The translations under genes were made by a program, and so were the position numbers. Below, piece after piece: positions 58,658-60,588 of a DNA stretch of 64,000 bases (position 1 is its first letter; the number at the start of each line of letters is the position of its first letter). A model generated the notes under the pieces. That model saw nothing but the letters and a program-made list of their open reading frames with translations. It ran no database searches and was not told the origin of the DNA. The DNA is from Alphaproteobacteria bacterium (GTDB lineage Bacteria > Pseudomonadota > Alphaproteobacteria > SMXQ01): the NCBI GenBank assembly GCA_009380075.1, contig WHSO01000001.1, forward strand, positions 1 through 64,000, given 5' to 3'.

Positions 58658-58664
58658 AATGAGA

Positions 58665-58672
58665 ACGAAAAA
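58665..58672. repeat. Target-site duplication, left copy
   Basis: ACGAAAAA directly precedes the left end of the IS1595-family element; an identical copy follows the right end at 60548-60555. Eight bases is the size reported for the IS1595 family. Confidence 0.9.
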
Positions 58673-58735
58673 GGCACTATTATACTTGACGTACCCAGCC
58701 CCAACTGGTAGGTTGTTCTCATAAGGAGAACAGCC

Positions 58736-59659
58736 ATGTCGATACTCAACGCGCCCCACTTTCACGACGAAGAAGCCGCCTACAAATGGGTAGAAGCGCG
58801 GGTCTGGCCGGATGGCCGGGTTTGCCCCCATTGCGGCGTTGTAGACCAGAGCGCACCCCTGAAGGGCAAGAGCACCCGGATAGGCACCTACAAGTGCTAC
58901 GCCTGCCGCAAGCCCTTCACCGTCAAGGTCGGGACCATCTTCGAGGCCAGCCACGTCAAGCTGCATATCTGGCTGCAAGCCATTTTCCTGATCGTTTCGA
59001 GCAAGAAGGGCATCAGCGCCAACCAGCTTCACCGGACCTTGGGCGTCACCCTCAAAACCGCATGGTTCATGGGCCATCGTATCCGCGAGGCTATGGACAA
59101 CAACACCGGCCCGCTGGGCGGGGAAGGGAAGATTGTTGAGGCCGACGAAACCTTCATCGGCAAGCCCGATAGCGTTTTCATCAACGGCAAGGGCTGGGTG
59201 GAGATGCGCGGCGTTGCTACCAAGCGCAAGGTCATCAGCCTTGTTGAACGTGGTGGCCAGGTGCGCTCCATCAAGGTTGACGATCTCACCGGTGAGACCA
59301 TCCGCAAGGTTCTGTCCGAGAACGTGGCGAAGGAAAGCCGCCTCCATACCGACGAAGCCCAACACTACAAGCGCCCCGGCAAGGCGTTCGCCAAGCACGA
59401 ACGGGTAAACCACTCCGAAGAGGAATATGCCCGTGGCGATGTGACTACCAACACCGTTGAAGGCTTTTTCGGCATCTTCAAGCGCGGTATGCGGGGCATC
59501 TATCAGCATTGCGGCGAACAGCATTTGCAGCGCTACCTGTACGAGTTCGATTTCAGGTACAATAACCGCATCGCCTTGGGCGTTGACGACGCTACCCGCG
59601 CGGACAATGTTCTCAAGGGCGTGGTCGGCAAGCGGCTCACCTATCAAACGACTCGTTGA
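58736..59659 (+). CDS. IS1595-family transposase
   Basis: 307 residues. The N-terminus has a zinc ribbon (CPHC and CYAC, about residues 32-62). The catalytic ISXO2-like domain shows Asp in IVEADETFIG, Asp in RLHTDEAQHY and Glu in TTNTVEGFFGIFKRG, which together fit the DDE/DDEK set of the family. GGAG precedes the ATG. It appears intact and the element has complete ends, so it is probably active. Confidence 0.94.
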   Translation: MSILNAPHFHDEEAAYKWVEARVWPDGRVCPHCGVVDQSAPLKGKSTRIGTYKCYACRKPFTVKVGTIFEASHVKLHIWLQAIFLIVSSKKGISANQLHRTLGVTLKTAWFMGHRIREAMDNNTGPLGGEGKIVEADETFIGKPDSVFINGKGWVEMRGVATKRKVISLVERGGQVRSIKVDDLTGETIRKVLSENVAKESRLHTDEAQHYKRPGKAFAKHERVNHSEEEYARGDVTTNTVEGFFGIFKRGMRGIYQHCGEQHLQRYLYEFDFRYNNRIALGVDDATRADNVLKGVVGKRLTYQTTR

Positions 59660-59832
59660 TGATGGCAAAGAGCAAAAAGCCAAAGACGCGGAAAAGAGAC
59701 GAAAAAAGCCAGTCCGAAAGGTTCGTCGAAAAGGCAAAGGAACTTGGCGCAGACGAAAGCGGCGAGGCTTTCGAGCGCGCCTTCAAAAGAATCGTGCCCG
59801 AAAAGAAGGGAAACGATAAGTCACTGAAATAA
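59659..59832 (+). CDS. Small IS1595-associated passenger protein
   Basis: 57 residues. The ATG uses the last base of the transposase stop, so it is translationally coupled. The protein is highly charged: a lysine/arginine-rich start followed by SQSERFVEKAKELGADESGEAFERAFKRIV, an amphipathic helix. I recall similar short proteins next to IS1595-type transposases in other alphaproteobacteria. No function is known. Its 3' end overlaps the convergent passenger gene by 12 bases. Confidence 0.75.
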   Translation: MMAKSKKPKTRKRDEKSQSERFVEKAKELGADESGEAFERAFKRIVPEKKGNDKSLK

Positions 59833-60498
59833 CATATCTAAACTTCCAGTGATCGCAGTAGCTGGCACTATTCTTACGTCAATTTCCATTTCAACGTAGT
59901 TCCCCGGCTGCTCCAATTCGGCAGGAACGGGGGTAAGTAATTTTATCGACTCAATCGACAACTTGGTAACCGCGCTATCGTCGTCCAGAAGGCAGAACAC
60001 CGGCGGCCAATCTTCTGGACTCTCGCTCTGGTTTTCATTCTCGGGAACGTCTTGCTCGTAGATCGGCACCTGCAGCGCGTCAAGCAAGGTTTTTAGACGG
60101 TTGTCTAAATCGCCGCCGACAAAGAGAATGCCTCCAGGCCCTATTTTCCGGTAAAGACGAATTTGCAGGTGACAGTGAAGTTCGTGTACGTGAGTGATTA
60201 AGGGGACAAAGTTGTATCCTTGAAGCGGATACCTCCAATAAAAATTCCTGATCCCCACAACTGGACGTTTGACCTCAAAGTGTTGGCCGCGCCGCGCGGC
60301 CACTTGCAAGGTTTTCCATTCCGCAAAGTGTTCCTTAAGGCGTCGGTCCTCCGCCCAAAACGCCCGTAATTGGTCATGCAGTTCAAGGCGGATTTTTTGC
60401 TTATCGACAGGCCCCGCGTTCGACCGCAGGGGCCCCCTGTAGCGAAGTGTTAAATCCATAGGCTGGTCCCAATCAGTGGGGTGCGATGGCTCAGACAT
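59821..60498 (-). CDS. IS1595 passenger protein with RusA-like DLDN...K...DD motif
   Basis: 225 residues. The centre reads GGDLDNRLKTLLDALQVP, then PPVFCLLDDDSAVTKLSI. This spacing of D-x-D-N-x-x-K and a downstream D-D-D matches the active site of RusA-type Holliday junction resolvases (E. coli Asp70, Asp72, Lys76, Asp91), although the rest of the protein is unlike RusA and longer. GGGGGTGTAGG precedes the ATG. The gene is inside the IS with a GC content below the transposase. Nuclease activity is inferred from the motif; relatives known to me are annotated only as hypothetical proteins. Confidence 0.65.
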   Translation of the reverse strand: MSEPSHPTDWDQPMDLTLRYRGPLRSNAGPVDKQKIRLELHDQLRAFWAEDRRLKEHFAEWKTLQVAARRGQHFEVKRPVVGIRNFYWRYPLQGYNFVPLITHVHELHCHLQIRLYRKIGPGGILFVGGDLDNRLKTLLDALQVPIYEQDVPENENQSESPEDWPPVFCLLDDDSAVTKLSIESIKLLTPVPAELEQPGNYVEMEIDVRIVPATAITGSLDMLFQ

Positions 60499-60547
60499 AG
60501 CCTACACCCCCACATATGGGCGTGGGTACGTGAAATATAATATGCGC

Positions 60548-60555
60548 ACGAAAAA
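60548..60555. repeat. Target-site duplication, right copy
   Basis: ACGAAAAA, identical to the copy at 58665-58672. It lies directly before the recA promoter region. Confidence 0.9.
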
Positions 60556-60560
60556 AGAAC

Positions 60561-60588
60561 TTGTATAAAAGAACAAAACATGTACAGT
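60561..60588 (+). promoter_or_regulatory. recA: Candidate recA promoter with SOS box
   Basis: TTGTAT (60561-60566) and TACAGT (60583-60588) form -35 and -10 elements 16 bases apart. GAAC-AAAACAT-GTAC (60571-60585) lies between and overlaps the -10; it differs by one base from the alphaproteobacterial LexA site GAAC-N7-GAAC. The IS ends 14 bases upstream of the -35, leaving this unit intact. Confidence 0.6.

Follow-up and report, generated by a model that had tools for sequence, protein, structure and literature searches.

A 64,000-nucleotide stretch of DNA (the window, positions 1 to 64,000 of contig WHSO01000001.1, assembly GCA_009380075.1, from an alphaproteobacterium) contains a complete IS1595-family insertion sequence of 1,875 bp, which spans exactly positions 58673-60547. 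The element encodes a transposase, a small protein coupled to it and a RusA-like nuclease. We consider it likely that this is an IS1595 insertion sequence of the cargo-carrying kind (a 'tIS'), in which one slot takes exchangeable genes, and that the nuclease is cargo and not transposition machinery. Insertion sequences are commonly regarded as transposase-only elements. Comparison of sequences establishes the anatomy of this one, its target duplication and the corresponding empty site, the active site of the nuclease, the recurrence of this cargo, and an exchange of cargo that is independent of both the transposase and the small protein.

Anatomy of the element and its insertion site

The features of the element are collected in Table 1. 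The two flanking 8-bp duplications are identical, the inverted ends match at 18 of the 24 outermost positions, and the 39-nt arms (58678-58716 and 60504-60542) are complementary at 74%. Both hallmarks of the IS1595 family, terminal inverted repeats and an 8-bp target duplication, are therefore present. The congener G385 has the same intergenic stretch, upstream of recA, without interruption and with a single copy of the target, ACAAAAAA, which demonstrates that the window element is a genuine insertion. The exact coordinates, the inverted ends and this empty site bear out the earlier note on this DNA, which had described an intact 1,875-bp IS1595 element with an 8-bp duplication. Its own genome holds one full copy.

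On its sequence, the transposase is unambiguously assigned to IS1595 (PF12762, DDE_Tnp_IS1595, 1.7e-35; PF12760, 1e-10; NF033547, IS1595, 1.1e-58; all above cut-off). The ATG of the small open reading frame (ORF) sits within the transposase stop codon (TGATG, 59659), in agreement with the overlapping 57-residue protein of the earlier note. The RusA-like ORF is convergent with the transposase and shares the 12 nt at its 3' end with the small ORF.

Table 1. Features of the IS1595 element and its flanks (window coordinates; aa, amino acids).
Feature	Position	Strand	Basis
Left target-site duplication, ACGAAAAA	58665..58672		Sequence; single copy in the empty site of congener G385
Left terminal inverted repeat, GGCACTATTATACTTGACGTACCC...	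58673..58716	+	Same end type in 46 related elements
IS1595-family transposase, 307 aa, zinc ribbon and DDE domain	58736..59659	+	Pfam PF12760/PF12762, NCBIfam NF033547
Type-A small protein, 57 aa; predicted two-helix hairpin (18-29, 35-45), basic tails	59659..59832	+	ORF; profile; model
RusA-like nuclease cargo gene, 225 aa; D130, D132, K136, D173/D174	59821..60498	-	Homologue alignment, profile alignment, model
Right terminal inverted repeat, GCGCATATTATATTTCACGTACCC... (minus strand)	60504..60547	-	Sequence comparison of ends
Right target-site duplication, ACGAAAAA	60548..60555		Sequence; empty site of congener G385

The recA gene lies approximately 115 bp downstream of the element. The pre-insertion site (window 58661-58672 and 60548-60575) reads GAAC-GAAAAAA-GAAC, a GAACN7GAAC direct repeat that we take to resemble an alphaproteobacterial LexA (SOS) box. 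The repeat is also present in G385, as GAACAAAAAAAGAAC. In the window it is split by the insertion and the remaining sequence is GCACGAAAAAAGAAC; a second LexA-box candidate (GAACAAAACATGTAC) is undisrupted.

Cargo exchange and descent of the small protein

In a protein search of 385 same-class genomes, 40 had IS1595 transposases, at 43-76% identity. Thirty-five elements (the window element included, plasmid relatives added) were delimited by inverted ends and 8-bp duplications, which match at seven of eight positions in two cases. All are 1.8-4.1 kb long and all have sequence beyond the transposase. The overall comparison set comprises 46 delimited related elements, and across them the slot after the transposase holds unrelated genes. 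The cargo types recognised by Pfam are PIN with a partner gene, PIN_10 with DUF433, SocA_Panacea, DUF3800, GmrSD_N with or without HNH, NYN, and RelA_SpoT; many slot genes have no Pfam domain, and some are HEPN-like. Within the 35-element set, only the window element and L051 carry a RusA-like gene. The sister transposases of L051 and L064 (support 100/100) travel with different cargo, RusA in the former and SocA_Panacea in the latter. Most relatives have unrelated cargo in place of the RusA gene, yet their 8-bp duplications are intact.

Cargo also differs between related elements within the window genome. A left-truncated sibling (G000:C80:45389-46436; L002:1501-2548) has a small-protein gene 94% identical over 140 nt to that of the window element. 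Similarity ends within this gene; the sequence that follows holds another cargo, also convergent and related to the cargo of L059, L075 and L090. The right end of the sibling (L002:2525-2548), as we read it, agrees with the window right end at 20 of 24 positions. An exchangeable gene inside the ends, the mark of a tIS, is thus observed both among relatives and in this sibling.

The same genome holds a second complete IS1595 element (G000:C88:23780-26040; L096:3915-6175; 2,261 bp; duplication TCCTATCT), with a small protein of another type (type B, below) and unrelated HEPN-like cargo. At L067 (G079:C85:83061-93053), a back-to-back pair of IS1595 elements carries different cargo; their transposases point outwards and are 84% identical.

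The small proteins fall into two types. Profile search found type A, the type of the window element (motif ...RFxExARExGADExxEAFERAFKKIV...), in 22 of the 46 delimited elements, always in the direction of the transposase. Type B, which is unrelated to A (...LLRRLLKTPPQPR... and a basic tail), is present in 16 of the 46, always on the opposite strand. The two types are mutually exclusive (hypergeometric 7e-7, relatedness ignored), and one or the other occurs in 38 of the 46 elements. Acidobacterial and deltaproteobacterial RusA carriers have neither. When 142 genomes were scanned, type A was found at 10 places: seven at IS1595 elements or transposases of the 385-genome search, one at the C80 sibling, one (G124:C408) with a transposase fragment nearby and one (G056:C42) with no transposase within the 10 kb examined. 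The window protein was modelled as a hairpin of two helices with flexible basic ends (mean predicted local distance difference test score, pLDDT, 72). At L066:2321-2755 (minus strand), type A is fused to a C-terminal region of approximately 100 residues, behind a PIN gene.

Transposase and small protein share their descent, and the RusA-like protein does not. Among nine alphaproteobacterial-type RusA carriers, transposase distances correlate with small-protein distances (Mantel r 0.73, p 0.0004), but show no such correlation with RusA distances (r -0.22, p 0.84); over all 13 RusA carriers, the latter correlation is r 0.04. L126, L170 and L181 group together in the transposase tree (support 100/99), and the approximately unbiased (AU) test rejects their RusA proteins as a group (p 1.6e-5). 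The window element and L180 are transposase sisters (100/96) whose RusA pairing is also rejected (p 0.02), with the caveat of the long window branch. A nuclease serving transposition would descend with the transposase; since distances and trees disagree, this reading is not supported, and the distance correlation and AU tests reject RusA as a co-inherited transposition component. The earlier note had suggested a role in resolving transposition intermediates, which is not supported in view of the unrelated cargo on related transposases and the separate inheritance of RusA. It had also named free variation of passengers among close copies as an outcome that would speak against that role, and such variation was observed in the relatives, in the same-genome sibling and in the uncorrelated distances.

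Because it is inherited with the transposase, the small protein is, as far as sequences can tell, an accessory part of the element itself. It, and not the nuclease, is probably the conserved functional partner of the transposase, and it may aid or regulate transposition. A dedicated antitoxin of the RusA protein was also considered and is disfavoured, since the small protein accompanies any cargo.

The RusA-like nuclease and its distribution

The 225-residue protein contains the motif G-D-L-D-N-R-L-K-T-L-L-D-A-L and, further on, L-D-D-D, which provide the catalytic D-x-D-N-x-x-K and D-D residues of RusA. Homologues were collected by a genome scan (261 relatives, 80 kept) and from viral (IMG/VR) contigs (15 more). 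In the 104 homologues aligned, D130, D132 and D174 are invariant, K136 is 97% conserved and D173 95%. Most homologues were retrieved by a pattern over residues 129-138, so conservation there is partly due to how they were selected; D173/D174 lie outside this stretch and their conservation is independent of the search pattern. The motif is therefore not a chance occurrence, and the pattern pointed out in the earlier note proves to be a complete RusA-type active site. As most family members begin at the position of Met14, the true start of the gene may be at 60459, giving a product of 212 aa.

Beyond the active site, the resemblance is remote. The single-sequence match to Pfam RusA (PF05866) is below the curated cut-off (15.5 vs. 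22.8 bits, E 0.028, over 22 residues), and a search of this type gave no relevant PDB match. Five of 10 homologues match Pfam RusA at E up to 1 (best E 0.028). We aligned the family profile (hhalign) to a set of E. coli, phage and alphaproteobacterial RusA proteins, the E. coli sequence being verified against PDB 1q8r. D130/D132/K136/D173-D174 were aligned to D70/D72/K76/D90-D91 of E. coli RusA, with scores of 39.5-44.8 and probabilities of 84-92%; the controls (20 column-shuffled and two unrelated profiles) reached at most 17.0. Alignable similarity is confined to about 35 columns.

The AlphaFold model, whose alignment left out two plasmid-derived rows, is confident (pLDDT 82.5) and has extra helices at its N terminus and a long insert that separates the two motifs. 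It gave no PDB fold match below E 0.05. Among its first 50 matches to viral predicted structures, 15 of the 18 informatively named ones are RusA or junction resolvases, but these matches are weak (E 0.004-1.2, low TM-scores). A structure without the RusA fold was the other outcome that the earlier note had named as speaking against its reading; the missing PDB match and the weak, mostly RusA viral matches are what the model yields on this point. Synonymous sites are saturated in the element-borne RusA-like pairs used to compare nonsynonymous (dN) and synonymous (dS) substitutions (for example L114/L178: dN 0.14, dS not computable), which is consistent with purifying selection. The family shares with E. 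coli RusA (PDB 1q8r, 2h8c) and phage RusA the D-x-D-N-x-x-K motif followed by D-D, and differs from them in length (about 190-225 vs. 120 aa), in the N-terminal helices and the insert, and in its sub-cut-off score. The setting of the window gene is an insertion sequence rather than a phage recombination module. Judged by these comparisons, the passenger is a distant relative of RusA with the same catalytic core; by score it falls outside the curated family. It is probably a metal-dependent DNA nuclease.

An IS1595 transposase adjoins 15 of the 104 RusA-like loci (window included; L163, whose transposase lies 2.5 kb off, is not counted), and 14 of these 15 genes are convergent with it, the exception being L178. 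Twelve RusA-bearing elements, the window element among them, were delimited with perfect duplications, and L177 by its ends only. The carriers belong to Alphaproteobacteria, Acidobacteriota, Myxococcota and viral contigs. At a transposase density of 55 places in 385 genomes, the rough chance expectation is far below one such neighbour in 104 loci, indicating that the association is real. In the RusA tree, all 15 linked genes fall in one part of 41 rows, scattered among unlinked homologues, and the other part (59 rows) holds none. Apart from the IS1595 transposase and local synteny of near relatives, the 104 homologues have no conserved neighbours; the RusA-like gene is a widely distributed solo gene.

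A phage origin of the cargo was considered and rejected, as 50,697 phage records gave no match. A viral scan with the single RusA-like sequence was also without match. Of the 15 distant relatives on IMG/VR contigs, at least four (L178, L180, L181, L190) stand beside an IS1595 transposase, which points to mobile DNA in those contigs and not to a phage module.

In L114 (1,168 bp), IS1595-type ends flanked by an 8-bp duplication enclose only the RusA-like gene and no transposase; by its sequence it is a mobile insertion cassette, a kind of element from which the window element differs by having its own transposase. L189 (819 bp) is a tentative second cassette that scored no better than chance pairs in the same scan. 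Two RusA-bearing elements, L126 (3.0 kb) and L171 (3.5 kb), have over 1 kb of extra sequence separating the small gene from the transposase, and possibly hold two cargo genes each.

Function of the cargo and meaning for the family

IS1595 elements with passenger genes are known as tIS, among them tISCpe8 and MTnSag1/tISSag10 (PMC5704250; PMC3129680). The window element resembles them in its IS1595 DDE transposase, its terminal inverted repeats and a passenger within the ends. It differs in what it carries, a RusA-like nuclease and a small coupled protein, whereas tISCpe8 carries lincomycin resistance and tIS are treated as mobilisable by conjugation (PMC5704250). Tn3-family transposons also have small toxin- or defence-type genes beside their transposition genes (Lima-Mendez et al. 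2020, PMC7157771); compared with the toxin-antitoxin genes of Tn3, cargo of the window type swaps freely, while the small protein stays with the transposase. We found no published RusA-like IS1595 passenger and no type A or B small proteins in the literature covered, which excludes the founding family paper (Siguier et al. 2009), so an earlier mention is possible.

On our reading the element has three modules. The ends and the DDE transposase mobilise it and generate the 8-bp target duplications. The small protein, translationally coupled to the transposase, travels with it by descent. The slot beside the right end takes exchangeable cargo; in this element it is filled by the gene for a diverged, probably metal-dependent nuclease of RusA type, whose transcription runs towards the transposase. 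Cargo may be swapped when elements recombine with one another where the small gene ends. The nuclease may cleave branched DNA as RusA does, and may be retained for a defence- or toxin-like benefit to host or element, in the manner of the PIN, SocA, GmrSD, NYN and RelA/SpoT genes that relatives have in the slot. Selection of this type is suggested by that company and by one report of a phage RusA that inhibits its host, being toxic when expressed in M. smegmatis (PMC11373665).

Three observations weigh against this interpretation. First, Pfam recognises no domain in roughly half of the other cargo genes, so a defence-like slot is a partial description. Second, RusA cargo is present in at least 13 IS1595 elements of several phyla, with the gene almost always convergent and adjoining the right end; such regularity exceeds that of random cargo and is compatible with a helper role in transposition. 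Third, the PADLOC defence models match neither the window nuclease nor the four homologues tried, so the case for a defence role comes from the company in the slot. They do not match the small protein of the window element either.

The RusA-like protein might also be a nuclease that acts on its own in defence or abortive infection, or an addiction toxin that the small protein holds in check, with the insertion sequence as its vehicle. We give this somewhat less than an even chance. Its slot-mates are toxin-antitoxin or restriction-type genes, the phage RusA mentioned above is toxic, and the gene is a widespread solo gene with several homologues on viral contigs. The lack of PADLOC matches speaks against it, and a dedicated antitoxin is unlikely because the small protein stays with the transposase whatever the cargo. 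Also against this reading, acidobacterial and deltaproteobacterial carriers have neither type. Slightly more doubtful is the broader proposal that IS1595 elements of Alphaproteobacteria serve specifically to shuttle one defence- or toxin-like gene at a time, with a specialised slot at the right end that nuclease, PIN, NYN, GmrSD or (p)ppGpp-type genes occupy in turn, and that types A and B, which descend with the transposase, are new accessory factors of transposition or cargo control.

It is unlikely that the protein retains the active-site motif and has another function (a different nucleic-acid substrate, or regulation). The sub-threshold Pfam score, the few alignable columns, the additional helices and insert, and the missing PDB fold match fit such a change, but the metal-binding positions are kept in the 104 homologues and the informatively named viral fold matches are mostly RusA. 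A role in transposition, cutting the element's branched or figure-eight intermediates, is very improbable: it would suit the RusA-type active site, the fixed position and orientation of the gene in IS1595 elements and the replicative, circle-forming excision proposed for the family in a review (PMC5704250), but most relatives do without the gene, the gene is not co-inherited with the transposase, and its homologues are mostly outside IS1595.

If the nuclease is exchangeable cargo, as we favour, this IS1595 group acts like a miniature transposon, with a fixed core (ends, transposase and coupled small protein) and a rotating single-gene slot. The small protein, with its two mutually exclusive families A and B, is a novelty that was overlooked at first. 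The rotating slot would be a simple route by which toxin- or defence-like genes could spread. Many of the genes found there match no known domain, which makes the slot a defined place to look for further genes of this type.
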